DNA of 64,000 bases from Carallia brachiata (Eukaryota; Streptophyta; Magnoliopsida; Malpighiales; Rhizophoraceae). Location of the stretch: assembly GCA_021464245.1 (NCBI GenBank), contig JADCRB010000071.1, positions 3,100,001 through 3,164,000 on the forward strand, read 5' to 3'. A program made the position numbers and the translations under genes. How positions within the stretch are numbered: the first letter of the stretch is position 1; each line of letters opens with the position of its first letter. The notes below the pieces were generated by a model. That model had not been told where the DNA came from and ran no database searches. It saw only the letters and a program-made list of their open reading frames with translations. Shown one piece after another: positions 13,859 through 60,681 of this stretch.

Positions 13859-14044
13859 GAAAATTAGAGTTAAAATTTTAAATTTTTCAGTCGTAAACTT
13901 TAATTACCAAACATCTTGTCGAAAACCTAATAGTGTATGCAACATTAAAAATAAGAGACCCACCACGGGACGGGGCAAAAAAGATAATCAAACAGTTAGT
14001 TTCGTATTTGTCCATGGAAATCATGCAAACGAATAAAATGGGTG

Positions 14045-14709
14045 TGTAAAGCGTAAATTTCGAGTCTAAAATAATTAAACTCGAAAATACAAAAATAAAT
14101 TACAAATAAAAATTGTAAAGTAAAAGAAAATTTACGTGGGGTCGATCTCCGTAGATCCTCCGATTAGTGTTCCTTTTTTTTTTTGACTCCGTCAAGGGCT
14201 GCACGAGCTTGATCTGGACAGAAATAATTTCCACCGCTTTTTCTTGAACTGGATAGACTGAAACTGTGTCTGATTTGGATGTTTTGACTACGTTTAGGAA
14301 CCGTAGAGACTCGATCTGAGTTGATCTGACTTAATTTCACCGAGGGTCGAATGGACTTGTTCTCGGATGAGTTGCCTGGATTTTGCTGAGGGCCGTATGA
14401 GACTTAATCCCAACCGAATTTGTAATATTTCGATTTTTTTTTTTACTATCTCTCTCTCTTTTTTTTTCTTTTTTTTTTTTTCTTTGCACTGCGCTTCGCT
14501 GCCCTTTTTTTTTTCTTTTTTTCTTCTTTTTCTTCTCTCTGCTTGCTGGCTTGCTGTTTTTTTCAATTGGGGGGAGGCCATTTATAGGCCTCCCCCATGC
14601 CTGCCACCAACCAATGGTTGGTGGCATTGCAAAGGTTGGCAGCTGCCAACCTTCAAGGTTGGCGGCTGCCAACCATTAATTTTTTTTTTTTTTTTTTTTA
14701 TTGTTTACA
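14045..14709 (-). repeat. 3' LTR of the retrotransposon
   Basis: This 665-bp repeat matches 23449-24116 along its whole length; differences are a handful of substitutions (for example GAGTCTAA against GAGCCTAA, CAACCGAATTT against CAGCCGGATTT) and T-run lengths. Plus-strand ends are TGTAAAGCG and TTTACA. U3 lies at the high-coordinate side. It holds palindromes at 14570-14596, 14602-14626 and 14632-14653. The loop of the first is TATAAAT on the minus strand, the likely LTR TATA box. Confidence 0.95.
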
Positions 14710-14722
14710 AATGCCCCCACTT
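14710..14722 (-). other. Putative polypurine tract
   Basis: On the minus strand AAGTGGGGGCATT directly precedes the 3' LTR start (TGTAAACA). Its position and G-run fit the plus-strand priming site of an LTR retrotransposon, although the two Ts just before the LTR are unusual. Confidence 0.5.
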
Positions 14723-15055
14723 CAAGGGTCGGTAAGAAAAATTTTTACAGAGTAATTCGAACCGAGTCTTGAAGTCCAGTTTGAAATTTGGAAAGTCCTG
14801 ATGAACATTGAATCTTGGAGTCTTCTATCTTTGACCATGTCCGCTGTTGTTGGATCGCAATAGAAAACCGATATGATCTTGAAGAAGTTAGCAGCCCAGC
14901 CAATATAGAAATTGAAGTCTTGGCTCCAGGTGCGTTCGAGCTTCCATGGCTGGCAAAGGCTTTTAAATTCTTTGAAGTTCCAGAGCTCTGGTGAGGATGA
15001 TCCAGTAGGCAAAGAACTTGAACCTCCCCAAGAGAAGGCCCAGGACCTTGGAACT

Positions 15056-15440
15056 TCAAGACCGGCTCAGAGAGACTGACTGTAGTGATGATTTCCAAGT
15101 CTGCTTCGACGTAAGGAGAGTAGTTGGAACTTCCCTGTACGTCGCTGCATCCAAAGAAAGATTAGGATAATTGCAGCTTCTCATCCCTCTGTGGTAGATG
15201 TGAACTAAGGAGAGTAGTTGGAACTCCATGACACCGATGGCGTTGGAGACTGAGTTTCGAGGGCTTTTAGGGATCCCTCGAAGAAGACTACTCCTTCTTT
15301 TCTTAGCTCGTGCGCCTCCAACTTCTTGATCGAAGAACTTCCTGAGACAAGTGCAGAGACTAGCCATTTTCTTTTGAGAAAGAAGAGCTGAGGGGTGAAT
15401 ATTACAACTCGGGCATGCAGGATATATACACAAATAATAA

Positions 15441-15473
<33 letters not shown>

Positions 15474-16282
15474 GAAAAGTCAAAAAAGGTATGCAGAATC
15501 GGTAGGGCCACGTCCCTTTCCTGCATAAGAGACAAAAGAGGCAGCGGCTGACGCGTGTCACGAAAGTCGTTACCGTGTGTGGCAGAAGTCGTTGCCGTGT
15601 GCTGCGGAAGTCGTTGCCGCGTGCTGCAGAAGTCGTTGCAGAAGTCGTTGCACCTTATCTTGTCGGCCGTCCTAGCGGGGCCCGAGGTGCACTCCAAGTC
15701 AAGCTCGACCTCGTCTGGTGGGCCGATGATGTTGACGTCGCTTTCCGGCTGGTTGATGCTGCCGGAATATTCTGGAAAGAGAGGCAAAATTTCGCCGGAA
15801 TGACTCCTGTGTGCTAGAAAAATTCCTCCTAGACTTAAGTATCTAGGAGGGATGAACCCTTGGCTGACTCCGTGAAACCACCAGGACCAGTATGTATGCT
15901 CCCATAGGCTACGGCTTTGATGAACGTACCGTGGAGAGACCATTGCAGTGGTAGAACTTGGGCCGGCTTCATTTGAGGGTGAAGCTGTACTGGTGAGATC
16001 TACTATAGGAACAACAGGCTGTGCTTTGGAAATACCATCTCTCAGCGCCACTGTTTCCCTATGTCTCCGATTCTGGAACCAAAAATATACATTTTTTCCT
16101 TCGACTGCCCCTAGCGGGCGAAGTCGTGAGACAAGTTGGAGAATCTGTGTAGAGTTAGGGACAATACCTCCATCGTTGTAGAAGACTTCCTCCAAAATTT
16201 GCAGTTGTGCCATGGTCGGTTGCCACCTTGTGCGAGGTGACCTTTCTTCTCCCTTGTCTTGAGGTTCTGCAACTGGTTCCAT
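15056..16282 (-). CDS. WUSCHEL/WOX-type homeodomain protein ORF carried inside the retrotransposon
   Basis: A continuous 408-codon frame starting ATGGAACCAGTTGC. Residues about 17-80 form a WOX-type homeodomain: R-x-R-W-x-P near the start, ILEEVFYNDG for helix 1 and the following loop, and EGKNVYFWFQNRRHRE for the recognition helix, with the invariant W, F, N and R. The longer-than-usual homeodomain with EGKNV before the helix is the WOX hallmark (plant WOX reads EGKNVFYWFQN). Residues 165-170 (ILPLFPEY region) resemble the WUS box, and VELDLE near 192-197 resembles an EAR repression motif. From about residue 208 it runs through a 22-bp tandem repeat, and at about 270-278 through a lysine run encoded by an A-tract, so only the first 205 residues or so look like protein under selection. 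It lies in sense orientation between integrase and the 3' LTR. Expected role if expressed: DNA-binding transcriptional repressor. Confidence 0.75.
15563..15657. repeat. 22-bp minisatellite within the homeobox ORF
   Basis: Units starting GTCGTT and ending GCAGAA or GCGGAA repeat about three and a half times (GTCGTTGCCGTGTGCTGCGG type), with one shortened unit. On the coding strand they give repetitive C-N-D-F and T-R-Q-x-L-P segments, which marks where the homeobox ORF stops resembling a conserved protein. Confidence 0.8.
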
Positions 16283-16403
16283 CTTTCTTGCGGCAGAGGA
16301 GCAAAGGTCTTGGTATGTGGTGAAGATCGGTTGAGACTGATGCTGAGTTTCAGACTCAAACCCTCCGTTGCTTTTATATTTTTGGGCCGTTCACAGTTTA
16401 TAC

Positions 16404-16661
16404 TCATGCGGGCCAGGAGTTGGATTGGATTTTGAACTTGGGTTTGGTTGTTTGGGACTTGGAATTTTTGGGTTTTGGGCTTTGGATTGGATTTGGGTCG
16501 AGTGTTTGGGCTTCTAGACTTGGATTTTTGGACTTGGGTCGAGTGTTTGGGTTTTGGATTTGAATTTTTTGGATTTGGGTTGAGTGTTTGGGTTTTGACT
16601 CTGAATTGGGCTCAAGTGTTTGGGTTTGGACTTTCGCTTGGTCTTTCAGATCGGGACTTCG

Positions 16662-16697
<36 letters not shown>

Positions 16698-16728
16698 ATT
16701 TTTTTCTTTTTTTTTTTTTTTTTTTTTT

Positions 16729-16782
<54 letters not shown>

Positions 16783-16800
16783 ATATTTACACATAATACT
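16404..16800. repeat. Minisatellite and A/T homopolymer spacer between pol and the homeobox ORF
   Basis: 16440-16640 consists of degenerate tandem units of the type GACTTGGGTCGAGTGTTTGG and GGGTTTTGGATTTG. 16664-16778 is nearly pure T (A on the element's strand), broken by single G and C bases. Long open frames here encode only lysine or phenylalanine runs and are not genes. Confidence 0.8.
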
Positions 16801-16803
16801 GTT

Positions 16804-17960
16804 TCAGAAATTTACCATTGGGCCGATTCGGACGCCTTCTTGGTCTGACAGCATGTAAGCGTTGTGAGTGTAGGCCTCCTGCACTAAGTATGGCCCGTCC
16901 CATTTGGAAGTAAGCTTGTCACCAGGCCGATGCTTCATGTTGATGGGCCGTCGCACTGCAAGAACAAGGTCTCCAACTTGAAAAGATCGAGGCGGACCCT
17001 GCGGTTGAACGTGTTGGTGAGCCGGGCTTGGTAGCACTCAAGTTGCTGTTGTGCTTCGAGCCTCCTTTCATCGAGAGCTTCTAACTCATCCAGACGTAGG
17101 CGAGCATTCTCCTCCTGTGTGAGTCCTTCCAGAACAGCCATGCGCAGGGATGGAATCTGTGTTTCCAACGGCAGTATTGCTTCGACACCGTAGACAAGTG
17201 AGTATGGCGTCGCCTGTGTTGGAGTCCGGTAAGTTGTACGATACGCCCATAATGCCTCCGGAATTCTGTCATGCCAATCTCTTTTGGATTTAGAGACTAC
17301 CTTCCGCAACAGGTTGCATAAGGTCTTGTTGAATGCTTCGGCCAAGCCATTTGCTGGGGCATTGTACATGGATGACTTGTACTGCTTGAACTTGAACTTC
17401 TCGCAGAGCTTGTCGATTAAGCTGTTGTAGAACTGCTTACCATTATCAGTGATGATGAATCGAGGGACTCCATAGCGATAGATCAGCTGAGTCCGGATGA
17501 AATTGGCAACATGCTCCTTCTTTACCTCTCTAAGTGGAATGGCTTCAGCCCATTTTGAGAAGTAGTCGGTTGCTGCGAGGATGTACAGGTGACCCAGGGA
17601 TGACTTTGGCAAGGGCCCCACTAAGTCGAGACCCCAAGCTTCAAAGGGCCAGGATGAGACAGTTGGATGCAGTGGCTCCGGTGGTTGATGTATGTAATTC
17701 GCATGAAATTGACAAGCTTGACAGTTTTAGCAAACTCAATTGAATCACGTACCATGGTTGGCCAGTAGTATCCCATCCTTCTGAGTTGGAAGTGCAACTT
17801 AGGCCCGATTGATGTCCGCCACAAACACCAGAATGTGCTTCAGTGAGAGCCTGTTTTGCCTCTTCATTGGCTAGGCAGCGAAGTAGAACTCCATCAAAAG
17901 ACCTTCGATACAGAGCATCCTTGAGATATATGAAGCGGGGAGCTCGTCGTTGAATTTCTG
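16804..17960 (-). pseudogene. Retrotransposon integrase (frameshifted)
   Basis: The end of pol. An N-terminal zinc-binding region is recognisable around 17960-17740 (EAHSGVCGGHQSG, then MGYYWPTM in another frame). The catalytic core from 17621 has AATDYFSKWAEAIPL with the first Asp, FIITDNGKQF with the second Asp (17432-17458) and NGLAEAFNKT with the Glu (about 17322-17350). A C-terminal DNA-binding part with KWDGPYLV ends in a stop at 16804. The core is open over nearly 690 nt, but the zinc finger and the C-terminal part lie in other frames, so the protein would not be made intact from this sequence. Confidence 0.9.
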
Positions 17961-18099
17961 TCTTATGACGACGATCTTCGGGCAGCTTCCCGTGCTGTAG
18001 ATAGTCAATGATTGGTTGGCGCCAATTCGTCCTCCGCGAGACGTATAGATACAGCGTTGGCTGCTGTAGTTTCTTCATCATCCTTTGTGGCACTATCCA

Positions 18100-18870
18100 T
18101 TTTTGGCACACGGCAACAACTGTAGCCTGGATTTCTGACTTTGCAAGAGAAGTAGCCAGGTTAGCCAACGCGTCTGCCTGAGTGTTTTCTCGTCGAGGCA
18201 CATGCTCCAAGGTGATGCTTTCAAATTCATCCATTAGCTGTCGAGCACGTTGATGGTAAGGCGCAAGGTCCTCTTTCTTCACGTCATACAATCCTGTAAG
18301 TTGGTTGATGACGAGCTGGGAATCTCCATGGACTTCTATAGTTGGAATCTTCATATCGACAGCCATTTGAAGACCAATGATCAAAGCCTGGTATTCAGCA
18401 ACATTATTTGAACATAACTCACCGAGAATGATAGCATATGGTAGTATTTGTCGTTGAGGAGTGACAAACACTATGCACCAGCACCATCACGCCTTGCTGC
18501 ACCATCAAAGAACATCGTCCATGGTGGCGTAGTGTCTCAATGTAAAAGACCTCTTCATCTGGAAGATCATCTGTGAACTCCCAATCTGACGGAACAGGGT
18601 GATCTGCAAGGAAGTCTGCTAGAGCTTGTCCTTTGACTGCTTTTTGAGGCACGTAGACAATGTCGTAGCTTTGTAGGATTACTGCCCACTTGGCAAGTCG
18701 TCCTGACAAGATTGGTCTGGATAAGATATATTTGACAGGATCAGCTCTGGCAATGAGACGTACCGTGTGAGCTGCATGTAGTGCCTCAGCTTGTCAATGG
18801 CAAAGAACAGTGCTAGACATGTCTTTTCAATGGGCGAATAACTCAGCTCCGGACCATTTAGTGTTCTGCT
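18100..18870 (-). pseudogene. Degenerate RNase H plus second, archaeal-like RNase H
   Basis: The first RNase H remnant shows the LSGRLAKWAVILQSYDIVYV and KGQALADFLADHP segments typical of the Ty3/gypsy tether region (18709-18590). A second domain follows: NNVAEYQALIIGLQMA with its Glu, EVHGDSQLVINQLTG with its Asp, and HVPRRENTQADALANLA with the C-terminal Asp (about 18420-18160). A second RNase H of this kind after a degenerate first one is known from the Tat lineage and supports the classification. The two parts lie in different frames. Confidence 0.85.
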
Positions 18871-20095
18871 CAAGTAGTACAGGCAACTTCCTTTCCCTGC
18901 TCATTTTCCTGTGCAAGCAAGGCTCCCAAAGATCTTTCCTGTGCGCTGCAATGTAGAGAATCAACGACTTTCCTTGAATTGGAGCACCTAGGACCGGTGG
19001 ATTGGAAAGTACTTCTTTATGCTTCAAAGGCTTTGCTGCAAGCTTCGTCCCACTCGAAGTTGACATCCTTCTTCATCAACCGATGGAAAGGTTGACATCT
19101 CCCAGCTAAATTGGAGATGAAACGGCGAATGTAGGCAGCTTTCCTTGTAGACTTCGCAGCTCGTGCAGGTTTTTAGGTTCAGGCATCTTTTGAATTGCCT
19201 CAACCTTTGACTGATCAACTTCGATTCCACGATGGCGCACCACGAACCCAAGAAACTTTCCTGATGTGACACCGAATGCGCACTTGAGAGGGTTCATTTT
19301 GAGCTGATGCCTCCGAAGTCTTTCGAACACTGTCTTGAGATCCTCGAGGTGGTCTTTGCGCTTCTTAGTCTTTACAACTAAGTCATCAACATAACATTCT
19401 ACAATCTTGTGCAGCATGTCATCAAAAATTTTTTGCATAGCACGTTGATAAGTGGCGCCAGCATTTTTCAATCCAAACGGCATAACTTTGTAGCAGTATA
19501 TACCTTTTGGGGTGCGGAATGCTGTCAACTCCTCGTCTTCTGGTGCCATTCTGATTTGGTTATAGCCTGAAGAACCATCCATGAAGACAATGCTTCGTGA
19601 CCCGTTGTTGCATCGACTGTGATCTCCGTTATGGGCAATGGAAAGTCATCTTTCGGGCAGGCCTTGTTAAGATCTCGAAAATCAACACATACCCTCAACT
19701 GTCCATTCTTCTTTCCGGGACAATGTTGGCAATCCACGTTGGGTAGGTGACCTCTCGGATGAAGCCGGCATTGATCAGCTTGTTCACCTCCTCGATTTGT
19801 GGAATGAGTTCCGGGCGGAACCGTCGTTGTGGCTGCTTGACAGAACGACACCCTTCTTTACTGCTAGACGATGCACCGCAATTTTTGGGTCAAGTCCAGG
19901 CATTTCTTTGTAACTCCATGCGAACACGTCCCTGTATTGACTTAATACCTGAACATATTCTTGCTCTTCTTCTGCAGTAAGTAAAGCACTTACAAATGTA
20001 GGTCGAGGATCTTCCGGAGAGCCAAGATTGACCTCCTTGAGTTCATCAACAGTTGCTTGGCCACCATCTTCAAGTTCCGGGGGAGCCTCCTTCAC
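18871..20095 (-). pseudogene. Retrotransposon reverse transcriptase (frameshifted)
   Basis: Reverse transcriptase blocks follow in order: FAWSYKEMPGLDP, then VCVDFRDLNKACPKDDFPLP, MDGSSGYNQIRMAP, FGLKNAGATYQRAMQ, the catalytic YVDD at 19393-19382, and KCAFGVTSGKFLGFVV. This is the standard Ty3/gypsy arrangement. The frame is interrupted near 19850, near 19580, and again around 19110 and beyond. The interruptions are single-base shifts, and coding resumes each time in a neighbouring frame with family-typical sequence. Confidence 0.92.
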
Positions 20096-20585
20096 TTCAC
20101 CATCTGATGAGTCGGATCAGCCTCCTCGCTAATTGTGACATGAAATGAGCCTCTGACTTCACCTTCTTTGTTTGACTGGATAAGCCTGTCTTGTTTGGTG
20201 GTGGTGTGATGGCACGTGCATCAGCTGCTCGGCTTCGGCTCTTTAGCGTGATCCGCACAGGTGACTTCTCCTGATAGCCTAAGCCAGGTCGGGACTGTGA
20301 TGTTTGAGAAGCGGCGCCATGTGTGGACGGCAGCGTACCCATTGTGCTCGGGTTTGAGAAGTCATAGCCGCCTTTGCCAAAAGCTTGTATGCATTAGGAT
20401 CAAATCCTTCATGTGTTCTTCTTTCTGGAAGTGAGCCGCCTTCGACTGCCCCCGTGTGTGGTTTGACGAAGCCTTTTAATGGTTTTGAAGACAAAACCGG
20501 CTCAATCTTTGGTATCGGCAGAGTGTAAGTCTCCTTCAGGTTGTGCAGCTCCTTTGTTTTGGGTTGGCTATGACCTTGCTCCTGT

Positions 20586-21521
20586 TTAGATCAATACAAT
20601 AAGAGAAAGGGGGTTGACCTTCTGAGCGTCGTGACTTCGGCACATAGCGTAGGACTGGAGTGGAGCTTGAAGATGCAACATCCTTCGGACGAAGTTCAGC
20701 AGGCTGTGGCAGCTTTTCATTTGTTGGAGCCTGGGGTTGGCATTGGCAGGTTCTTCGACAGCTTTTCCCTTTTTGTGGATGCCCCCAGTCCAAGTAGCTT
20801 TTGACGGAATGATCTCCGGATTGTCTGTGTCAGTGTAGAAGACTGCATCCGCCAAATGTGATTCAGCATCATCGAACGGCTTTAAGTCAGCATTGACCTT
20901 TTGAACGCCACCATTGTAGTACTTAAAGCACTGATGCAGGCTTGAGAGCACAACTCCATTTCCATGAATCCACGGTCGTCCTAGCAACATCTTATATGTG
21001 GTACGTGCATCAATCACGTGAAATAGAGTGCTAGAAGTGAGATTACCGATAGTAGCTCCAAGCGAATCATCCCAATTGCTTTCTGTCCTCCTTGATTAAA
21101 GCCATGAATCATCAGCGGCTGTCTGATAATTCATCACCGATGCCGAGCTCCTTTATGGTGGATTTTGGGATAATATTGACTGCTGAGCCATCGTCGATCA
21201 GAATACGTCGAACCTTCTGTCTTTCACATAGCCTGATACATACAGCGGCCGATTGTGGGGTTTGGACCCCAGCAGGAGATCCTCATCTGAAAATGAGATA
21301 GCAGAGTAACATCCGACGTGATTTTGGTCCGCCTGTTGCTCCCTGAGTTAGACTCATTTGATGGCTGTGATTCAGCTGAGGTCTGGAGAGTATTGCTGAC
21401 TTGATTTTGCCACACTTCTGTTGATTGCAAAGCTATAAACAGCTGAGGGTTAGCGAGAAGGGTTTGGAGAGCTTCATATACCTTCTCCGTTGTCGACTTT
21501 TTGTTGTCGAGCGGCTCCTCC
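20586..21521 (-). pseudogene. Retrotransposon protease and flanking pol region (frameshifted)
   Basis: The aspartic protease active site reads LIDDGSAVNI (on the complement of about 21172-21201), followed by MIHGFNQGGQKAIG and VIDARTTYKMLLGRPWIHG. The segment between ELSDSR and MIHGF needs one extra base to stay in frame, where the family has a Leu codon. The later part (HLADAVFYTD and beyond) is the weakly conserved linker before reverse transcriptase. Confidence 0.8.
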
Positions 21522-23231
21522 TTACGGTGTGTCACTCTTCTGATGGTTTTGAAGTGATGGTGGTTGGTTTGCCGAGGTTACGCCTTCCTGGTCCAGAATG
21601 ATTTTATTCTGGCTTTTGAGCTTCATGATTAGCTCCTTCAGGACGAAACATTCTCGTTGGATGACTTACTATCCGGTGATATTTGCAGAATCTTGGATCG
21701 CTGACTCGATCCTTTTCATTCGGCCGCTTGCACTCTGGGAGTTCGATCAGCTTCGCCTCCAGAGTTGTCAAGAATGTCGGGACGTCTGAGTCGGGGAATG
21801 GATACTGCTTCTGCTCCAGCTCTCGCAATGTCACCTTCCGCCTTTCCTGTTGTTTTGGCTGAGTTATTTGGGTCGGAGGATTTACCTTAGCTCTGGCGCC
21901 CACTTTTACTGGTGCGGCTTCAACAGTCATCACTTCTTTCCTTTTCCGGAGCTGTTGGGTTTCTTAATCTCCCTTCTGCCCCCTTGCTGGGTCCAACTGG
22001 ATGGGAACCGTGCCTCCGGAAGTCTGGATACTTATCTCCATATCATGTGCACGGGTCGCCAGTTCTTCGAAAGTTCGGGGTTTGACACCCTGCAGGATGT
22101 ATAACAGCTCCCAATGCATTCCCTGGATGCACATCTCCACGGCAGAAGTCTCCGTCAGGCGATCTTTGCAGTCCAAGCTGAGGGCACGCCATCTGTTGAT
22201 GTATTCGACAACGGGCTCTCCTTTCTTTGTTTGGTGCTGGTAAGCTCCATCATACTTACCGTCCTTCGAGTGCTGAAAAATCTGTTGAGGAACTCTCGTT
22301 GTAGCTGTTCCCAACTGTCGATCGATTCTGGTTCAAGATTTATGAACCAGGTGAAAGCGGTCTCCCTGAGTGAACGAACAAACTGCTTCACCAAGAGATC
22401 TCCGTAAGTCCCTGCGTTGTTGCAGGTTTCAACGAAGTGGGCGATGTGCTGTTTGGGATCGCCTCGTCCGTCGAATTGTTGAAATTTGGGCGGCTGGTAG
22501 CCCAGAGGCATGTTGAGACTTTCGATCCGTCTGGTGTACGGTTTGACGTACATCTGCGATCCTTGGAAGGATGTAGCTTGTTGCAGTCGGATCGTATTGG
22601 CTATCATTTCCTGCAATTGTTGAACAGATAGCGAAGCTACAGAATTTGAGGGTGGCAGCTGTGTAGAACTACCTGGTCGCTTTTCTGCAGGGAAGACGTC
22701 GGCTGGTGTGGCTTCTGGAGTGAAACCGGGTGGATATGGTTGCTCCTCGCGGATTTCGGGATCAACTTGGATCGGGGCTTTTCCTTTGAGAGCTGCGATC
22801 TGTTGATCTTTTTCCTCGACGACTCTGATCAGCTGCAAAATTTTGTTCTCCAATTCTGAAATCCTTTCCTCTGTGCTGGTTGTGTTGGTCATCATGACGG
22901 CAACAGATGAGGCTCCGGGAAAGACTGGGGGAGAAAACTCTTCTGATTCTTCTGTGTGAGTCGGATTTTGTTGAGCAGGCTTCGTCGTGTTGCCCCCGAT
23001 TTCGATCGGGGTGGGTGATCGACTCCTCCATGCGGCAAGAGAGTCAGGGGAGAGATCCTGTTGTGCAAGCTGTGGACTCTCCATTTCGACATTTTGTCGG
23101 GTTTGGACGGCAAGAAATTGTGTCCGTCCCCGGGTTTCTGGACCTGCGTACCCAGGTAGGGTAGTTGATGCAGGCAATGGAGCCGTTGCCTTCTTTTTTG
23201 TGGCAGCAGTTGTACTCCTTTTCGGTGCCAT
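21522..23231 (-). pseudogene. Retrotransposon gag (frameshifted)
   Basis: Starts MAPKRSTTAATKKK at 23231, just after the leader. A coiled-coil-like segment (ISELENKILQLIRVVEEKDQ) precedes the retrotransposon gag domain, with YQPPKFQQFDGRGDPKQHI, AFTWFINLEP and WEQLQREFLNRFF. At about 22235 the frame shifts by one base and the domain continues as EPVVEYINRWRALSLDCKDR. Further shifts follow near 21985 and 21940 (GKGK into MTVEAAPVKV, where an A-run appears one base short). Several breaks sit in short homopolymers. Confidence 0.9.
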
Positions 23232-23239
23232 TTGATGTG

Positions 23240-23400
23240 CTGAACACCTGTAAAATTTTTTTTTTTTTTACTTTTTTTTTTTTACTTTTTACTTTTTTAC
23301 TTTTTACTTTTACTTTTTTTTTACTTTTTACTTTTACTTTTTTTTTTTTTTTACTTTTTTTTTTTTCTCGGCTCCCCTTTTACCTCTTTTTTTTTTTTAG
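23240..23400. repeat. A-rich leader of the retrotransposon
   Basis: Between the primer binding site and the gag start. On the plus strand it is a run of TTTTTACTTTTT-type units, on the element's strand A-rich AAAAAGTAAAAA. Non-coding 5' leader. Confidence 0.7.
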
Positions 23401-23424
23401 GAACAAGAGATGGGAGGTGAAGTT

Positions 23425-23442
23425 GTCCCACCGAGCGTGCCA
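23425..23442 (-). other. Putative primer binding site
   Basis: On the element's strand, six bases after the 5' LTR end, the sequence TGGCACGCTCGGTGGGAC begins with TGG, as expected for pairing with the CCA end of a tRNA. The tRNA was not identified. Confidence 0.6.
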
Positions 23443-23448
23443 AAAATT

Positions 23449-23855
23449 TGTAAAGCGTAAATTTCGAGCCTAAAATAATTAAACTCGAAAATACAAAAAT
23501 AAATTACAAATAAAAATTGTAAAGTAAAAGAAAATTTACGTGGGGTCGATCTCCGTAGATCCTCCGATTAGTGTTCCTTTTTTTGACTCCGTCAAGGGCT
23601 GCACGAGCTTGATCTGGACAGAAATAATTTCCACCGCTTTTTCTTGAACTGGATAGACTGAAACTGTGTCTGATTTGGATGTTTTGACTACGTTTAGGAA
23701 CCGTAGAGACTCGATCTGAGCTGATCTGACTTAATTTCACCGAGGGTCGAATGGACTTGTTCTCGGATGAGTTGCCTGGATTTTGCTGAGGGCCGTATGA
23801 GACTTAATCCCAGCCGGATTTGTAATATTTCGATTTTTTTTTTTTTACTATCTCT

Positions 23856-23886
<31 letters not shown>

Positions 23887-24116
23887 GCACTGCGCTTCGC
23901 TGCCCTTTTTTTTTTTTTTTTTCTTCTTTTTCTTCTCTCTGCTTGCTGGCTTTCTGCTTGTTTTTTCAATTGGGGGGAGGCCATTTATAGGCCTCCCCCA
24001 TGCCTGCCACCAACCAATTGGTTGGTGGCATTAAAGGCAAAGGTTGGCGGCTGCCAACCTTCAAGGTTGGCGGCTGCCAACCATTAATTTTTTTTTTTTT
24101 TTTTTATTTGTTTACA
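23449..24116 (-). repeat. 5' LTR of the retrotransposon
   Basis: 668 bp, matching 14045-14709. U3 is at the high-coordinate side with the same palindromes. The TATA-like loop is flanked by GGGGGAGGCC and its complement around 23970-24000. This copy would drive transcription of gag-pol and, if read through or spliced, of the homeobox ORF. Confidence 0.95.
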
Positions 24117-26288
24117 GGGTGCGAATGAATTCCCGAGGCGATCGAGTCAGAATAGTCTTTTCATAGACAATACGGCATTACACAGATTTATACAATCTGC
24201 AGCAAAGGAAATACCAAATTGAAAAATGTTAGAGACAGACGATTGAGTAGTTAAATTGTGTCTCTATTGAAATAAACATTGTATTTTTATATAATTACAT
24301 TAAAAATGTATATCTAAAAAAATACAAAAAAATGTCTTATTTTTTATATTTTTTTAGATGCAGATTTTTTAAATATGATTGCACAAAAATATAGTTTTTG
24401 TTGCAATAAGAACACTATTTGACCACTAGTCCTCTTGTATATAACAGTGCTCTTAGATGAAAGATCGGCATAAACCCAATTTGGAATCATGTTATCGTCT
24501 TCTAGTTGAGTTGAAATTATGGCTTTTCTTTAATAAATCATTATCTAAAAAATTTAAAGTGTTGGGTAAGATTTAACAATAAATTACATATTAAAATTAG
24601 TATACCTACTAAAAAAATAAATCAAAATAGAAATCACATTTTAACATGTCCCTTTACTCTATTGAAGTGTAAATTATGTTTTGATCTTAAAGAAGAATCA
24701 AAGTGCATATCACGATTAGGAGACAGAGAATTTAGAAAAAGAAAGGATCGAAACCCCGACAGATGACAATGTATCAAAACAATATTCAATCCAAAATTTC
24801 AAACCGCTAGCAACAATAAAAAGTAAATTATTTGTTAAACTCTATTAGGTTTCAAATCATAGGATCTTTCATGGGTAGTTATTGTGCATTCATATTTTTC
24901 AAATTTCCTATTTGTTTGTTGACGATTGATTCACTATATACTTAACGAATAATCTAATCCCACGTTGGGACAATGATGACTAATAAATGTGAGACTTAAG
25001 AAATAGTTTTCTGTATCGCGATTAGAGATGCACTGGTCCTTGCTCGGCTAGTTTATTTTGCTTTTTCTCAAATCAACCACAGCTAATAGCGACCCATCAT
25101 TTGTGGAAAAGCACATGCAATTAAAGAAACAATTATCTTGAGCTATAGGTCTATACCCCAACTCAATGGATATTGATAGATAAGAGAAATCCTTTATTGA
25201 CACAATCTTATGAACGTAAATAAAAGCAAAAGCTTTTTATACCACGTATAAATTATTTTATATTATATAAATAATATTTTATACAACATGCAAGGAGACA
25301 TCTAGTAAAATAGTATAAAATTATGATTTTTTTTTTTACTGTATAAAAGATCATTGTTAAGATATTAAATACTTTATATATAGTATTAAATTGTTTTGCA
25401 TACACTTGCGTCCATAAAAATCGTGCATCTATGTAGTCGGTTCCTACGGATAATCACGACGTTGTTATCTGTGCACTTATGATGTGCACGCCTATGGTAA
25501 CGTGGAAAAGGATGGAAAATTTGGGTGGAATAATTAAATTGGCTTCCAAAAAGTATATCAACCAATATATAATTAAAGAAGTAAGTTGGCACGTGAATGA
25601 ATGTGGTTAGTAATTTGCCTAACTCCTTTCACTATATATGTGCAATACCTTGTGGATATGTGGCACATAGCCACGATCATAATCATGCGTCCTCATTAGT
25701 TATTCAAACCATACGCTTGCTTGTATTGATAACAAAATTGGAGAGCCATTATAATCGCACTAGTGTGAATTAATTTTAATACAATATTGAATCCTTTTTA
25801 TTTTGCTCATCGATGTCACGATTTGAATTCTGATTATTAGAATTAAAAATTTAATCACTTTATCACACTACTTTATTACCAGACCTCACAGCTAATGACA
25901 TAATATGCTCTGTTTGGATTGAAAGAAAGTGAATGAAAAAAAAAAAATTAAAAAATAATACAGTAACGATGATATTATAATTGATAAAAAATAATGATTA
26001 GAAAGTTGTAAGAAAGAAAATGAATAATAATTTATGAGAGAAAAAATAAAAATTAATTATTTATATTGATAAAAAATAAATAAAAAAAAATGAATAAAAA
26101 GTATTTTTTTTTTTTTCTTTCTTATAGTTTGCCAAACAAAGATAAAAGATTCTCTGTTCACGTTTCTCCCGTTGGATTGACTTTCCTAGTAGGGGCATAT
26201 CAAACCAGATACGTAATTGCCCGCAAGTTACTCGTTTCACATATTTAATGACTCTTCTTGTCCCGGTAGAAAAGATATGACTTACAAG
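24117..26288. other. Gene-free intergenic stretch
   Basis: AT-rich DNA with no credible coding region. 25905-26145 starts CTGTTTGGATTG and ends GTTTGCCAAACAAAG around an A/T-rich interior, and may be a decayed MITE. The block 25805-25905 resembles 28690-28790, a shared dispersed repeat of unknown type. Confidence 0.5.
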
Positions 26289-39456: not shown

Positions 39457-41260
39457 ATGGCCAGTACAGTCTTCTTCTAATATTCTTTTTACCCTTTCCA
39501 AATTTTTGGTAGAAACAGTGCAAAATAAAGATTGCAAATAAAGGATATGACAAAGAATTTGCTGTAGCCTTGGGGATTGCATGAAGATCAGTTTCACCTG
39601 AACTTCACCATAACGTATGGCTTTTGAATTCGGGCATAAATGGTGCCCTTATGCGTTTTCCAATAAGAAATATTTTGCATTTACCAACCTTTCTGTCATA
39701 TGATTTCGTTTGAAGTATTTCTATAATGAGAGACTGGCATAAAATACTCCCTCCGGCAAGCCCGAGGGGTACCAGCCCTATGAGGCAAGGGGGGAACCTC
39801 CACTACTGTCAATCCTCCCACTTAAGCAGGATTTGGGGCTTTGCTCTTCGGGAGTGTAGTGCATTTTTTGCAGTATCTTTAGACCCGTCTTTTCTTTTTC
39901 TGTTGATAATTAATAGACTAATTATTAATTATTGTAATACTAAAAAAGATTGAAAAGACCATAGAAAATGTAAGTTTTCTCTAATGCAAGGTAATAGTTT
40001 CCTGCTATGTCGATAATGGAAGCTAACAGTTTCCCAAACACATTGGATGGTGTGAACAGGAAATAATGATGTTTCTTCATTTCTTCCTCATGTTGACGGC
40101 CAAGGCACCAGGAGAAACATCTGAAGTACACTGTTGGTCTAGATAATGTAGAGGGAAAATGTTTGAAAACGTTTTACAAAGCCTCGACTGTCATAGTAGT
40201 TTATGGGATTGTTTCCTCGACCAAAGAGGGGATTCTGCAACTGCCTCCTGCATTTATTTATTATTTATTATTTTTTGAGCAATTTTTTATCCATTCTACG
40301 AGTTTGCCCAGAGAAGCTTAGGGAAACAAAAAGGAGGAGAGAAACGTAAAAAGAACAAATGTTGAAAAGAATTAATATATTTAATTTTTGATTTTTTTTG
40401 AGTTTATTAAGAAAATTATTAATTTTATTATATTATTAGAGTGTTTTTTAAAAGACTGTATTTTATCTATTTTATTTTTTTGGTATTTGAGAGAGTGTAA
40501 TGTAATTAAAAATATTTTATTTGAAAATGAGTAGAATGTAAGAAAAAATAATATAATATATATTTTATATTATAATATTAATTTTATTCTCAATAAATTT
40601 AACTGAAAAAAAATTAAAAAAAATATAAAATAGAGGCGGATGGAAATTAGCCCAAATGGGACTTGGTAGGAGCCCAAGGCATTCACCCTTGGCCCCAAGA
40701 CCATTTTTTCTACTCTCTGACGTTGCCAAACGCAAGCTCTTGCCTCAATTTCCCCCAATTCCTTCCTTCTTGCGATAATTCCTCTCTCCTAAACATGGGA
40801 TAAGAGTTTTGTTTAACTTCAACGGGGTTGACCAAGTTATACAAAGGGACGCTACTAGGTCCACCAGCTGTGACTGTCATGAAAATAAGATATTATTTTA
40901 TCTTTTTTATAAAATTAAAATATAAATTTAAATAATTATTATCTTAAAATATAAAATATCAATAATATATAAAATTTATTAATTTTTTATCGATTTTCTT
41001 AAAAATAATTAAAAAATAATATTATTATTATATATATATAGGTTAAAATATTATTATATCCTATGTTGTGCTACTTGGCATATTCTCCGCGTGTACCAAA
41101 GATTTCTGTACAGAAAGAGCCCACAACGCCAGTAGCTACAACCTCCACCGTTCATTTTAGATAAGCCCAATTATAGCCTCCAATTCCACTCCCAACTGTC
41201 GAAGCAAAGGCACCAACAAGAAACGAGATAGAGCAGCAATAGACACAAGCAAGAAAAATA
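39457..41260. other. Intergenic between xylose isomerase and the At4g14100-like gene
   Basis: The first 100 bp are 3' UTR. 39742-39860 is an isolated GC-rich block beginning ACTCCCTCCGGCAAGCCCGA with no coding signal, possibly a repeat fragment. 40330-40620 and 40880-41040 are very AT-rich. The last 150 bp are the probable promoter and leader of the next gene. No other feature seen. Confidence 0.5.
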
Positions 41261-42595
41261 ATGAACCTCCAATTCCACTTAATATGTCTAACTGTAGCTT
41301 CCATAACCTTCCAGCTAGCTAAACCTTCACTTCAACACAAACCTGAACAGCACCTTGACTCAATCCCAATTGCCACGCCGTGGCCCGAACAGTTCCACGC
41401 GCTTCTATACATGAGCTTGAACTCAACACGATATCAGATCAACGACTTGTGGTACGATTGGCCTAAAGGTCTCAATGTGAATATAATCCAAAAGCAACTG
41501 TCTGTTTTGCTGTACGACGTGGAGTGGAACAATGGGACGTCGTTTTACTACACTCTGGAGGAGCCTTATACTTGTAGGGTGATGCATTTCGAGGTGGGTA
41601 TCCTGAGGCCTGATTTTCTTGATGGAGCTCACTATCTGGGGACACGTGTCACCGATGGGTTCTTGTGCAATGTGTGGGAGAAGGTGGATTTTATTTGGTA
41701 CTATGAGGATGTTGTCACTAAGCGGCCCGTCAGATGGGATTTCTACGATGGTATGTGTCCGATCTCTTACTGTTAACAGCTGCATTTACCCACTCCCATG
41801 GCCTAATTCATCTCCTTTTTCAGTCTTTCTTTCATTTGATACTGAGAACAAGGGTATCTGCATTTTTTTTGGTTGTCTGTTACAGTGTCTTTGGATTGTG
41901 AGAAATAAGTAAAAAAAGTGTGTTTGAACTGTGAGAAAGAGAAGAGAAAAAAAATTGTGAGAAAAAATATTGTAAAAATAAAATTTTAGATAAATGAAAA
42001 AATAAGAAAAAAAATAATAAAATAAGAAAAAAAAGAAGAAAATTATACTTAAAAAAAAGTAAGAAAAAATAAAATTATTTAAATAAATTAAAATTTGATA
42101 AAAAAAAAAAAGAATGATGGGAGCAAATGAATAATAAATTTTCTTTTTACCATTTTCTTTCTTCCCATTTTAACACAAAACAAACACATCATTAAGGTCC
42201 GTTTATGAGTTAAATAATAAAGAAGGCTTATCTTTATTTTGATAAACCCATAACCTTCTATCTCACAAATCGAATTCAAAGTTTTTAAGATAAAAATTCT
42301 AAGTATTTAATTATCGAGGTGTCTGGACAACACGAATGTTTGCTGAATAATTCACTTTGTCCTCGAAAATACTCTATTTCTAGTTAAAATGGTTCGTACT
42401 GGATGAGGTGCCAGACCCAATAGACCAGAACTCAAGCCTAGTCCCGACCCTTTATTTTCCTTGGTGAGCCTCTCATTAGTATTGAAAATGGCAGGTTTGT
42501 CCGCACACGTGATGACATTTGAGGTTGGTGCAGTTTTAAACTATTCATTGATTCAAGCACCAGTATACTGCTTCACCAAGGAAAATGATATGTAA
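41261..42595 (+). CDS. At4g14100-like secreted protein, two exons
   Basis: Exon 1 is 41261-41750 and exon 2 is 42495-42595; the intron has GT at 41751 and AG at 42493-42494, phase 1. Together they give 196 residues. Without the second exon the frame ends prematurely after FYDG, while exon 2 supplies [11 protein letters not shown] and [11 protein letters not shown], the expected family C terminus. Residues 1-25 ([20 protein letters not shown]) look like a signal peptide. Family blocks are [43 protein letters not shown] and [19 protein letters not shown]. Homologues are annotated as uncharacterised At4g14100-like proteins, sometimes as putative glycosyl transferases without proof. Function is unknown; secretion is inferred. 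The intron holds a probable MITE (about 41886-42200, TGTCTTTGGATTG to CAAAACAAACACA). Confidence 0.88.
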
Positions 42596-52081: not shown

Positions 52082-53139
52082 GGCCACCGTGTCAGAAGGA
52101 ACAAGTTTTCTTTACAGATTTTTGTGTTGAAATGGTATAATAAGAACACGGCCAACTGTTTGCAACTTATTGCATTAAACTTGATAACCTTAGACTTCAA
52201 ACCCTCTCGTGGCATCTTATAACTAATTTCTACACAAGACACAATTCACTTGTAATTTGCAATTATTATCTAAGTAATACCCTGCTTAGCAGAATATAAA
52301 ACAACTGGTTGCCTAGGTCTTCTACACAATTATTCAAGAGAAAATTTGCTGGAAGTTTCAAGTGTGAAGTGCAAAATCTCGCACATGAAAACGATAAGCA
52401 TCCTTCAGGCAACATATAAACGAGATTATAAGATACATAATCCAAGCCCTAAGATTTTAAATAAAAAATGGAGTCAATAGTCCATTGGATTGTTAGTTGT
52501 TCTTGTGAATGGGAGGTCAACTTCGAAACTTGAAATCTGTACAAAAAAAAAAGCTGATACCAGAGCTTGGCGAAAAAAACAGGGTGCCACGTATTCCACA
52601 TGCGTCAAATTTACAACAAAATCCAACCCATCACATTTACTTATTTTATACTATATCATATTAAACATCTCATAATGGTTATAAAAACGATAAACTGCAT
52701 GTTTTGTTTTGTTACGTTCCACTACAGTATAACCAAATGCGCCCATATCTGATTTCTTTGTGTAGCATGTGTAACATAAAGGGTCCTCACGGATCAGCAT
52801 GTAGGTCCCATTCTTGAATTAAATGGCATTAATATTGAACACCAGTGCGGAGCTAAGGAGCGAAGCAAAAGTAGCAAACATATCAAATCGAGAGAAACAT
52901 ATCAAATCAAAGGATTTGAATGGTAGGCATACCAATGCTCTAAATTACGGGGAAAATTACGGTCAGTGGCAAATGAGAGTGAGATTCAGTCTCGATTGTG
53001 CTTTATATATAAAGTAGACCGCATGACTTGAGTTCGCTAATATTCAAGTTACATATATAAAAGAAATTTAATAAGAACGTATCAGTGAACCTCAATTAAA
53101 AACAACCTAATAGGTGATCACTATAATTCATTTGAATAA
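50158..53139. other. Gene-free intergenic stretch
   Basis: AT-rich with no supported gene. It contains an AT microsatellite at 52056-52081 and scattered A/T-runs. The plus-strand open frames at 51477-51734 and 51856-52140 lack recognisable domains. Confidence 0.5.
52056..52081. repeat. (AT)n microsatellite
   Basis: Thirteen AT units, flanked symmetrically by GCC and GGC so that the whole block is palindromic. Confidence 0.9.
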
Positions 53140-56100
53140 TTCTCAGTCATTTTATAGACAAAAAGAACTATTAGGCCAACTAATACTAGAAATTTTCAAT
53201 TATTTGGACTAACTCAAGTGCCCACTAAGTCTTTAGACTTGGAGAAAGCGGTGAGACCCATACTAAGTGGGTGAATATTTCCAAACTAAAAAATTAAAAT
53301 AAATTATGAAAAATTTTCAGTATCACAAGGACTATAATTCACGATTTGGAGTCTATCTATATATTAAATTCAATGTAGTGTTTCTCTTGTCATAAAAATG
53401 CGGCGTTTTTATTGTCAATTTTGAGACAATGATTAGCGAAGAATTTGAAAGATATTAGCACCAAGCCCGAGATGAGATGGACTATTAAGCAGAGAAAAGT
53501 ATGAAGCAATCACCTTCGTGGGATGTTCGTTCGAAGCATATCGTACGAAGCCAGTGGTGCACACACGTTGTTGCTAATATTCTTCAGCTTTGAACCATTT
53601 TGTCAAAAGAGTAGTGCCGCCTTAAAATTAGGGGCGCTGCTATAAGGACGAGAGAGTGGTGTTTCCTTCTGATCAAGAACAAAGGCAAGTTAGACTTATG
53701 AAAAGAAATAATATACATGAGAATAATAAAGCTTAATTAGTCCTTTTAATTTTTCATACTTTAAAATATTAATTATTGTAAAGGTTAAGGACTTCTTTTC
53801 TTTTTTTTTTTTTAAAAAAAAAATTAGCAGCTTTGCATGGTCTGGCCGGGACCATATGCCTAGCCATTCAATGATCTTGACCAAGCATCTATTACTTTTG
53901 GGGAACCTCCTCCTATTGAAGAAAGTCATTGCCCCAACTACATTCAGAAATTATGTATCTTAGCCTTTTGTTGACTGGCATGTAAAAAGTTGTGGTCCAA
54001 TAAGTACATATATAGCAGGATAGTTATGCCCATTTTCAACGACTTGGAATTACCGAACAATTGAATTTTCCTTACAGGGAATAAGCCATGCATGATGGCC
54101 ACATCCAAATTGTGTACGTAGCTTAAAAAAAAAAAAATCTCATATTTACCGTGAAGAAAATCATTTTTTTGGTGCAAATGAAAATAAAATTACAGGAAAC
54201 TAAGCTCGAAGAAAGACAACCCTTGGCTGCACGATCCAATAACAAACGCAATCCCGTAGGAGGTGTGGCCAATAGAGTCTCTCCAGAAGTTAAATTTGCG
54301 CCGTAAATCTACACATGAATTGATTTCTCGCACTACATGCTTAAATTCTCATCTCTACCATAAAGAAACTCATCGCCCCAACCAAATATACCCATTTTTT
54401 TGTCCTTCAAATTACGAGATTAATTTATGAAATCTCTTGATGTTGTTTCTAGAGATTTTAAAATAAATTTCATCCTACCTTGAGAAAAAGGGTTTATGAG
54501 AAAAAAAAAAACTTTTATTATGTTACTCAAAAAAATCTTTTGCGGTAAGTACAAAAAAAAATGTAAATTGTATGTTTGATTGTTGGATGCTAATAAAACC
54601 AAAACAAAAAGGCCAAAAATGGTCCTAATGCTAAAATGTCCAAATTGAGACCCAGCTGTTTGAAAGGAACGGACAAAAAATTGTCCTCATGCTAAAATGT
54701 CCAAATTATCTATCCATTAGAGTCAAGCACGTACATTGATAGACCCAGTCAGCAAATTGAAACCCAATTTTTCCTATCTTAAAATAATTATCCGGTTGCT
54801 CAAAAAAAAAAAAAAGATTGTCGGGATCCTGGCGAGCTGCACACCATGGAGTGCGCGAAATATAGACGCAGTCTTTTTAGCCGCTAAAAGTCTAAAAATA
54901 AAGAAGTTGAGATTGACATTTTACAAGTCTTATTAGGAAGAATTTCGTCACTTTATTATGTACAATAATTAAGGATCGGTACATTATCGGATTTCTGTAA
55001 AAATCACCAAGTTGTTCACATTCAAGAGTAGACATATATTTAATATCATCGAATACATTAACAAAAATTTAAACTCATGATATCATGATACAAGTAAATC
55101 CTTAATCACTAAATCACAAGAATTGATGGGTGGTGACAAATAGACTCAAAAAGATTTTATATTATATATGTACACTATTTTATATTTCAAACATAATATT
55201 TTTTATAATTATATATTTATAGTAAAATAGTTGATTTCATTATAGATTTGTTTTATATTGTATAAAATATCATGTATATTGTATAAAATTTTTTTGTTTC
55301 TATAAAATTTTGCATTCATGCAATCGTTTTCATATTACATACATATGTTTCGATAAATGATAGATGCATGCAAGATGAACCTATGGGGTCGGGCCAGTTC
55401 TAATTTCTTTGTGGGACTGCCAATTCCGACCGGCATTCATAATTGTCTTTTAATTATCATGAACATAATTAAAGGTTCAAATTTCCAATTGATAAAAAAT
55501 TCAATTAATTGGATTAGACCTCTTCTCGATTATGGTTCAAATCGTAATTATGTATTGTAGACTTCACAATCAAGTTTTCTTCGGTCCGGATGAATACCGA
55601 CCCGAAATTGGGATCGGCTCTTGTGCAGGATTGATCCACGCAACGTTTCCGAGGGAAAAAATTTAGCAGCATACATTTAGCTCAATTCGTAGCTGATATT
55701 CAACAACTAGTGATCGACAATTAATAATTAAAAATCAAAACTAGTAGTTATTAGTTAATTGAATTGATAACTCATATCCATAAAAATAATTACAAGACTC
55801 TCTTGAGCAACAATTTTTTATTATAACAGCACTACATAACAACAGATAATAAACAACAGAAGAGCAACACGATAACTGTGCAGCAATTTTCTTGGTATCA
55901 TGTTTCTACCATCATGTTGCTGCCAAGTTTTCCCCTTCTGATTATTGGAATTTCGGGCGGTCATCTGCGTTTTTTTTTTTTCTTTTAAGGCACATGTTAA
56001 TTGGTTCTAGTGCTATGTACTAAAAAAAAAAAAATAGAGCTCTATCAAAATATTGATACTCAACTGCTGATGGAACATAAAAAACCAAGAGGGCAAAGTC

Positions 56101-57310
56101 AAAACACGAGAAATATGTTTGAGGCACTCCTCAATTACAATAATTAAAAGAAACTATAAGAAATTTCTACTGAAAAATAGTTTTTTTAATGTGTTTTCAC
56201 ATCTACATTTTATTTCTTGAATAACCGAAGGGTTTGAATTGGAGTCTGATATTTTTAAGTGTATAGTTAGTGATAAAAGGAACTTTATTGCTCTTTGTAA
56301 ACCCTTACCAAGTTAGCTCCTTTTAAGGCAAAATTATAGATGTTGGAACTTGGAAGTTTTGTGTCCAAGCTAGACAACGACGGCCAAAGGGTCAACTCTT
56401 CGCTGCTCGGCCGTCTCTAGTTTGATTGGCTGTGGTAACAAATGTTGAAAACCACTTTTTGGTTTGACCCGAAAAAAAAAAGACAACAACAACAACAACT
56501 TCATGTTGATGTGGTCATCCGGAACATTAATCACGTAACATCCATATAGGTACAGAAAGAATAAGGAATGCTGATATTTATTGATAGTATAAGGCAGCCG
56601 CTTGTGAAAATATAAATAATAGAAAAATAGATATAGTATAATATATAGGATCAAAATGTTCTATCTTATACTATTTTATCATATCTTATGTAACAAATGC
56701 ACTCATGCGGTTAGTTCCGTCGGAAAAATTAGTAGTCTTGTAAAGGATGCTTTGCATATGCTTCTAATCTTGATGTGGGTTTTCCTGTCAAAGTATTTAT
56801 AAGTTAGTCTTCTATATACCATGTAGAACTACCAGTGAACTTAGTCTCGGATCTTTAAAAAAATAACAAAAAAAAAGGAAATCTCGTATAGTCTCAATGT
56901 GATGTGAATGATCTGTTTGCAATAAATCGAGGATGTGAGTGATATAATCCAAACACTACTTAACTGTCAACCAAAAGAAAAAAGAAAAAAGAAAAGAAAA
57001 GACATCCCGTTTTATTAATTGAAGGATACAATTTCATTATTTATAGTAGAAAATCTCTCGAATATTTTATTTGGTGTAGATCTCTCGAACTTTCGTTCTA
57101 TGATCAGTTTTCACACAATTAATGACATGGTTCGACTTATTGATTAAGTTTATGGCACCATGTACACCTAAAAAAATTGTATTAGATCAAGAAAAGGAGC
57201 ATGCATGATTGCAAGCATATGCGAAGTAATTTGCTGACTGGTATAATAATAGAGAAAAATTAAATGGCTCATTTTATTAAGATGCATATAGTTATAATAA
57301 TATTTAAATA
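53140..57310. repeat. Tandem duplication, copy A
   Basis: Homologous along most of its length to 57355-62150. Matching landmarks include AAAATGCGGCGTTTTTATTG (53395 against 57625), the G-rich block GAAGCCA(G/A)TGGTGCACACACG (53547 against 57777), GATTGATCCACGCAACGTTT (55630 against 59730), GTCTCTAGTTTGATTGGCTG (56413 against 61232) and a shared end near 57300 against 62140. Copies differ by many substitutions, so the duplication is not recent. Neither copy has a credible intact gene. Copy A alone has the 183-bp insertion at 54165-54347. Confidence 0.85.
54165..54347 (-). mobile_element. Short LINE-like insertion specific to copy A
   Basis: Absent from the matching place in copy B (near 58400). 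It is flanked by diverged direct repeats (54139-54164 and 54348-54373, 21 of 26 identical) that look like an old target duplication. On the minus strand it ends in GTAATTTTATTTTCATTTGC and then ACCAAAAAAA, as a 3'-end LINE fragment would. Confidence 0.5.

Positions 57311-60640: not shown

Positions 60641-60641
<1 letters not shown>

Positions 60642-60680: not shown

Positions 60681-60681
<1 letters not shown>

Follow-up and report, generated by a model that had tools for sequence, protein, structure and literature searches.

An open reading frame resembling a WUSCHEL/WOX homeobox gene lies inside a Ty3/gypsy retrotransposon in the window analysed here, a 64-kb stretch of the Carallia brachiata genome to which all coordinates refer, and raises the question of whether one element has recently picked up a host gene or whether a retrotransposon lineage carries, and may use, a stem-cell regulator of its own. 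We first describe the element, which is a minus-strand Ty3/gypsy retrotransposon with Tat-type domain order, paired LTRs and a 5-bp target duplication. Its 5′ LTR (668 bp, 23449–24116) and 3′ LTR (665 bp, 14045–14709), both on the minus strand, are 96% identical by self-BLAST and differ at 9 of 658 aligned sites, with a further 9 gaps (K2P 0.014). The LTR termini read TGTAAA...TTTACA and GGGTG stands on both sides (left copy 14040–14044, right copy 24117–24121), so that the predicted intact ends and target duplication are confirmed, and the LTR pair and 4–5 bp duplication expected of a plant LTR retrotransposon are present in the window copy. A polypurine-tract-like AAGTGGGGGCATT adjoins the 3′ LTR (14710–14722, minus strand).

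Pfam matches on the minus strand locate a gag frame (22155–23267; Retrotrans_gag, E 3e-7), a reverse transcriptase piece (19106–19645; RVT_1, E 2e-31), a weak RNase H remnant that falls under the cut-off (18419–18793; RT_RNaseH, E 0.032), a second RNase H (17641–18486; RVT_3, E 3e-23), an integrase core (16935–17726; rve, E 5e-11) and, at the end of pol, an integrase C-terminal piece with an SH3-like match likewise under the cut-off (16804–17037; E 1e-4). In the order RVT_1, weak RT_RNaseH, RVT_3 and rve, the additional RNase H (aRH) comes after RT-RNase H and ahead of integrase, an arrangement given as a Tat feature in the part of PMC6317226 consulted. A minus-strand spacer of A-tracts and tandem repeats (16283–16803) leads from pol to the ORF, and the whole region from pol to the 3′ LTR measures about 2.1 kb (16803 to 14710). 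The gag-pol of this copy is fragmented into many frames, with its domains on separate pieces, yet the LTRs are only 1.4% apart; the window copy (14045–24116) may already have been defective at insertion. Elsewhere in the window we observed a tandem duplication of about 4–5 kb (53120–57313 and 57345–62148, pieces 81–92% identical) and, as a gene candidate outside the element, a 177-codon open frame with an N-terminus like that of secreted plant proteins (41243–41776, plus strand). The 64-kb window yielded no RNA families at gathering score and no tRNAs.

The ORF lies where it had been placed, between integrase and the 3′ LTR and in the sense of the element, both being on the minus strand. Translation of the window gives an ATG-started frame of 408 codons without introns (15056–16282, minus strand), and a plus-strand reading was rejected in view of 19 stops in 15056–16282. 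Whether this length is meaningful was judged against other copies. A genome protein search, in which 102 of 3745 first-look candidates were scored, listed at least 107 matches, the window copy included; we read 40 of these (rows 2–41) with their flanks and 20 more, mostly from lower rows, for the ORF only. As one locus (L049) repeats another (L043), the 60 loci amount to 59 distinct other copies, a non-random sample that favours open frames because 40 of the 59 are top rows of a protein-level search. With that bias, 34 of the 59 begin with ATG and stay open for 201–208 codons, each in its own frame, at a rate of 26/40 among top-row copies versus 8/19 among lower-row copies. The other 25 have no family-length open frame from an ATG: four run on (L026, 412 codons; L019, 271; L024, 267; L050, 224), L051 is open but lacks an ATG, and premature stops end the other 20.

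Near codon 197 the window copy departs from the frame shared by the others, and it reaches 408 codons by way of tandem repeats and an A-tract. The 408-codon frame therefore exists as predicted, but as a gene it comprises only about 205 codons, since its relatives end at 201–208, and we rejected the full length as meaningful. By comparison with the other copies, codons 1–205 (15668–16282, minus strand) form the portion conserved in the family; the run-on part (15056–15667, minus strand) is unconserved as protein, and because the indels shared downstream are mostly not multiples of three, the later half of the frame does not represent a maintained protein.

The WOX-type homeodomain assigned to residues 17–80 (16043–16234, minus strand) is supported by Pfam (E 5.4e-9), by the best solved-structure match, a WUSCHEL homeodomain chain (E 7e-16), and by a predicted model with block-mean pLDDT of 91–95 over residues 21–70, in which confidence is low elsewhere and 100 of the 205 residues score below 50. 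All 11 PDB matches of the model at E ≤ 0.001 are WUS or STENOFOLIA homeodomains, and the homeodomain of the WUS clade of WOX transcription factors is accordingly present. To the homeodomain we add two motifs that the original prediction had missed, a WUS-box (ILPLFPEY, residues 165–172; 15767–15790, minus strand), which aligns to LPLFP of WOX2/WUS proteins, and an EAR-like C-terminal end beginning at VELDLE (15692–15709, minus strand), recognized by alignment and in the open copies. The resulting order of homeodomain, linker, WUS-box and EAR-like end is that of WUSCHEL. Among the 34 open copies, EGKN and WFQNRR are retained in 34 each, and LPLFPEY and an LxLxL end in 32 each. The WUS-box is defined as T-L-x-LFPxx, and linked with EAR to TOPLESS, in the section of PMC9781121 used here; the element motif conforms, with the strict T in under half of the open copies (TLPLFP in 16/34, ILPLFP in 15/34).

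The homeodomain also carries the one extra residue that distinguishes WUSCHEL proper from other WOX proteins. Its spacer is 34 residues long in the element protein, in both host WUS genes and in 115 of 119 parsable proteins of a panel that was itself drawn with a 34-type profile, and 33 residues long in 4/4 WOX2 and 6/6 other host WOX loci read. Two single-sequence protein searches with the ORF returned 4 and 5 proteins, none of them Vigna by name. The WOX2 origin hinted at by the first protein searches was set aside for WUS on the strength of the 34/33 spacer difference and the host comparison, even if subfamily B has 35/64 residues in common with host WOX locus L086.

We next asked whether the ORF belongs to one copy or to a lineage. 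A 34-base ORF probe found 772 genome sites with at most 3 mismatches and a 34-base integrase probe found 774, the reversed control giving 0 in each case. Among the matches listed on contigs C1–C36, the ORF probe matches exactly at 50 sites, and at 40 of these the integrase probe also matches exactly 1.0–1.8 kb upstream on the same strand; the ten others may have an integrase with mismatches. The same integrase, at 96.8–99.6% nucleotide identity, lies 5′ of the ORF in 37 of the 40 flanked copies (the exceptions are L033, L037 and L046). It is a lineage rather than a lone copy that carries the ORF, and the proposed check on related elements found it at the same place and in the same orientation.

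These copies are separate insertions and not one assembly artefact. Of ten copies for which a 5′ LTR was fetched, six have an LTR pair, and three of these six show target duplications of their own (AATAG, CTTAT and ATACC); L030 showed none, L036 was partial, and L009 contains N runs and a second LTR. No LTR pair was seen in the other four fetches (L032, L040, L037 and L046). The LTR pairs of L013, L017, L020, L030 and, in part, L036 are separated by K2P 0.006–0.019, and the L009 comparison gives 0.028–0.035. Many copies of a second subfamily, B, are identical in the ORF (distance 0.000), which together with the young LTR pairs indicates that many copies are recent; where identical copies lie on different contigs, some may be duplicates created by the assembly.

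To place the source of the gene, we compared the element proteins with host loci. The genome search with 134 scored matches identified two typical host WUS genes (L079 and L080), each with three coding blocks and with splice-like junctions read in L079, as well as other WOX loci. The element homeodomain shares 31/66 (subfamily A, that of the window copy) or 33/66 (B) residues with host WUS 1 and 30–33/66 with the WUS proteins heading the match list. In trees, WUS homeodomains of distant angiosperms are nearly alike, and the element proteins group together in a single clade (SH-aLRT 100; 100/100) whose very long stem measures 3.95 changes per column for the whole protein and 2.55 for the homeodomain; the stem length drew a long-branch warning, and the trees give the clade no firm position. 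One more diverged copy, L087, reaches 53% identity to Arabidopsis WUS, versus 39–46% for other element rows. The divergence from the host, the long stem and the residues of L087 together imply that the capture is old or evolution fast, and that the source of the captured gene looks like WUS.

A scenario in which the window element recently captured a single host WOX gene would agree with an ORF that is WUS-like and intronless, but it would have to explain why the best host WUS match covers only 31 or 33 of 66 homeodomain residues when these homeodomains are nearly alike even across distant angiosperms, why the closest WOX locus (L086, 35/64 residues with subfamily B) lacks the extra residue, and why there are 772 probe sites and two well-diverged subfamilies. 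A single copy near-identical to one host WOX gene, which had been named as the result that would overturn the prediction, is not what the genome contains. We rejected a single recent capture on the 30–33/66 residues and the 772 sites, and regard this explanation as already refuted unless the source gene is missing from the assembly, which leaves it hardly any probability.

Several features of the wider WUS family emerged alongside. Exon 1 of the host WUS is nearest to that of several eudicots at 61–75%, with about 68% to two Vigna WUS proteins, a level at which the host does not resemble Vigna. The homeodomain tree joins L079 with L080 (96/85), suggesting that WUS was duplicated in the host lineage. 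There are also short, fast-evolving WUS-like proteins of 145–207 aa (P0006, P0007, P0008, P0038, P0052 and P0074, Ipomoea; P0005 and P0009), seven of the eight (all except P0074) forming one long-branch clade.

Selection on the ORF was evaluated by dN/dS in 12 pairs of copies and, in five of them, by a neutral simulation matched for the number of changes. The pair of A and B copies L009–L030 gave 0.43 overall and 0.27 in the homeodomain, and comparisons of B with two more diverged copies gave homeodomain values of 0.11 (L054) and 0.09 (L060). Further homeodomain ratios were 0.27 (L009–L040), 0.32 (L009–L042 and L030–L058), 0.38 (L009–L054), 0.42 (L054–L067), 0.49 (L009–L058) and 2.48 (L060–L058); L054–L058 had no silent change and L030–L062 no change at all, and the nonsynonymous/synonymous counts behind L054–L058 and L060–L058 were 9/0 and 9/1. 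In the simulations, the excess of silent homeodomain changes was significant for A–B (P 0.009–0.014), B–L054 (P 0.007) and B–L060 (P 0.004–0.006), but not for L009–L054 (P 0.07–0.10) or L009–L058 (P 0.20–0.34). A ratio of about 1, which the original prediction had taken as the sign of a passenger, is thus not what the homeodomain shows at 0.27 and 0.09–0.11, with the qualification that the excess is not clear in two of the five simulated pairs. The linker (codons 81–160) is near neutral, at 0.5–1.3 in 11 of the 12 pairs and without silent change in the twelfth, and had no significant silent excess in any of the five simulated pairs; nor was constraint significant in any of these five at the WUS-box/EAR end (codons 161–205; P 0.13–0.85).

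Indels provide a second line of evidence. Among those common to at least three copies, 6 of 8 inside the ORF are multiples of three versus 0 of 11 downstream (Fisher P 0.001), and the two exceptions, of 2 nt in 34 copies and 1 nt in 33, are separated by 4 nt and together make 3. When only the 40 flanked copies were counted, the result was 4/6 versus 0/11 (P 0.006). These tests are to be read with the facts that some shared indels are neighbours, so that not all events are independent, and that the copies for the indel and selection analyses were chosen by protein score, a choice that favours open frames. Overall, the homeodomain still looks protected by natural selection, judged from a lean towards silent change in several, though not all, comparisons.

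The same data bear on the view that the ORF is a passenger, a captured piece of WUS without effect whose open frames merely reflect a recent burst from few source copies. Such a burst would fit the many B copies with identical ORFs and young LTR pairs (K2P 0.006–0.019), the neutral-looking linker, the C-end without significant constraint and the 25 of 59 copies that are not open at family length. It sits less well with homeodomain dS of 0.15–0.47 and a silent skew in three of the five simulated pairs, or with shared indels that keep the frame mainly in the ORF, and a passenger in which about half of the homeodomain has been replaced since capture should be frame-broken. We consider it unlikely that the ORF is only a passenger, while giving that view appreciable weight.

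Comparison of the two subfamilies revealed how the gene moves. Between the window copy (A) and L030 (B), the integrase is 99–100% identical and some 700 bases after codon 170 are 97–100% identical, versus 79–87% over the homeodomain and the first part of the linker; identity is also reduced in the repeat spacer ahead of the ORF (73–94%) and in the final 300 bases preceding the 3′ LTR (83–91%). Positive selection was rejected as the cause of this divergence, because silent homeodomain sites are divergent too (dS 0.47) and the flanks are 97–100% identical. High homeodomain dS between an integrase and a post-codon-170 stretch of such identity points to recombination, and the simplest reading would be that the diverged homeodomain segment was swapped between elements. 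Subfamily B 3′ LTRs are also longer, at about 770–1060 bp versus 640–705, and in the L030 LTR a TATA-like site is immediately preceded by tandem repeats, which resemble an enhancer array and were not seen in the window LTR.

An A-type cassette, which comprises the ORF and about 100 nt ahead of its ATG, is 99–100% identical in L037, L046 and L033, elements whose integrase region and LTR are quite different from those of the main element; in L037 and L046 the end of pol resembles an integrase C-end (75–78% over 18–20 residues). The cassette is, by the evidence of this identity, exchanged between element types. It could be argued from the same identity that a WUS-like host retrogene was domesticated elsewhere first, functions in the host and was picked up by elements more than once. 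No obvious free-standing gene of this kind appears among the 134 scored matches, with flanks read for a minority, and the A/B differences lie between integrase and 3′ stretches that are 97–100% identical, as expected of recombination between elements. We regard a prior host retrogene as highly improbable.

If the gene is kept by the element, its product might act on the element itself. TTAATGG is a WUS site, with TTAATSS as a looser form, and chromodomains are assumed to guide the integration of chromoviruses. A homeodomain protein could similarly serve its own element's cycle by binding LTR or genomic sites, switching transcription or guiding integration, and that its DNA-binding domain is the most constrained part speaks for such a role. 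TTAATGG occurs on the LTR sense strand in only 2 of 28 LTRs, both of them the window's, and is missing from the other 26, so that own-LTR binding through this site is unsupported. TTAATSS is enriched in the window 5′ LTR (3 seen versus 0.46 expected, P 0.015) and unenriched in one subfamily B LTR (1 seen versus 0.65 expected). The four target duplications read share no sequence, and the WUS-box and EAR-like motifs, each in 32 of the 34 open copies, point instead to co-repressor recruitment. A parallel does exist in the TRP28 protein of Retand elements, which is likewise predicted to bind DNA (PMC11963269, in the portion consulted), but on balance we find a self-directed role improbable.

Together, these data lead us to an explanation that we favour by a modest balance of probability: an old uptake of WUSCHEL by a Tat-type lineage, kept as an accessory gene that encodes a WUS mimic or competitor. 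The sequences show the ORF in hundreds of copies at one position and orientation, with a homeodomain, a WUS-box and an EAR-like motif in about 205 intronless codons; it is widely diverged from the host WUS genes, coding constraint is strongest on the homeodomain, and the cassette has been exchanged between element types. A Tat-type Ty3/gypsy lineage would long ago have captured a spliced WUSCHEL message between integrase and 3′ LTR, and that lineage and a related element type would since have spread it as an accessory gene. Should the LTR transcript give rise to the protein, the product is expected to be a DNA-binding repressor resembling WUS; it would enter the nucleus, bind WUS-type sites through its homeodomain and recruit TOPLESS-type co-repressors. 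There it may act as a mimic or competitor of WUS in shoot stem cells, the source of the germ line, and such a mimic would be a plausible gain for an element that needs germ-line entry. The likeliest benefit would be that silencing or defence is relaxed, or that the stem-cell state lasts longer, in the cells where jumps become heritable.

A bolder version of this explanation holds that a retrotransposon lineage runs its own WUSCHEL, a selected and traded virus-like accessory protein that acts in shoot stem cells and through which insertions reach the germ line. We put this forward tentatively, as possible rather than probable. One route might, for instance, be competition with host WUS in an antiviral or silencing role, as WUS is connected with RNA virus exclusion and the repression of methyltransferase genes in the passages of PMC10589665 consulted. 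The excerpted data of PMC7560203 bear on the cell type in two ways: of the 54 TE families with raised levels in vegetative stem cells of Arabidopsis, 26 are LTR retrotransposons, but embryonic and day-35 stem cells express TEs less than non-stem cells do, which counts against the stem-cell reading.

Extra ORFs are common in plant LTR retrotransposons, and their roles are described as mostly unknown in the sections of PMC7264820 and PMC11963269 used here. The present accessory gene has a readable identity, that of a shoot stem-cell master regulator with its DNA-binding and repression motifs kept. Its role thereby becomes testable through the binding of host WUS targets and through element activity or silencing in the meristem, with hundreds of copies and two subfamilies as natural variants.

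Among known systems, WUSCHEL itself (Arabidopsis; 6ry3, 6ryd, 6ryl and 6ryi) shares with the element protein the homeodomain fold, the 34-residue spacer, the WUS-box and the C-terminal EAR motif, in the same order. The element protein differs in that about half of its homeodomain residues are replaced, in being intronless and about 205 rather than 293 residues long (P0011), and in being encoded in a mobile element with hundreds of copies. The closest structural relatives are Retand/Ogre (Tat) elements, which, in the portions of PMC11963269, PMC6317226 and PMC7264820 consulted, likewise have a second RNase H before integrase and an extra ORF and tandem repeats between pol and the 3′ LTR. The most prominent products of these additional ORFs are TRP28 and plant mobile domains (PMC11963269, PMC6317226, as excerpted). 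Their conserved ORFs are mostly antisense, TRP28 above all, and their sense ORFs have no known domain in the parts consulted, whereas the WUS-like element has a sense ORF encoding a homeodomain protein. For Retand, the excerpt of PMC11963269 gives an antisense TRP28 ORF in 97% of clusters and a region between pol and 3′ LTR of 2933–6566 bp, of which the window copy falls short; in that region of the window copy, six of the eight antisense frames of at least 60 aa gave no TRP28 match (PF04195), the other two being poly-T tracts.

Captured cargo of another kind is described for an orchid Ty3/gypsy element with a 2-ODD/m6A demethylase (PMC9289625, in the text consulted), where a host-type domain has similarly been kept through element replication; the orchid cargo is an enzyme rather than a developmental transcription factor. 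B3 domains in Aegilops tauschii are mentioned in the same text. Words that begin with homeo or WUS are absent from the main texts, supplements aside, of PMC11963269, PMC6317226, PMC9289625 and PMC8775202, and in the literature searched a plant LTR element with a homeodomain ORF appears in a single report only. That report, on a 2023 meeting (PMC10714607), relates work by K. Naito in which WOX genes were found to have multiplied within LTRs in Vigna marina and V. riukiuensis, so that the original remark of knowing no described family of this kind is unsupported as it stood. As in Carallia, the Vigna WOX genes are present in high copy number, above 1000 in V. riukiuensis, and are mostly flanked by identical LTRs and target duplications; the account as available gives neither sequence nor element class, and analyses neither motifs nor selection. 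What the Carallia element adds to earlier reports is the nature of its cargo with the motifs it encodes, the signal of selection and the exchange of the cassette, and taken with the Vigna report it suggests that uptake of WUS/WOX genes by plant elements may recur.
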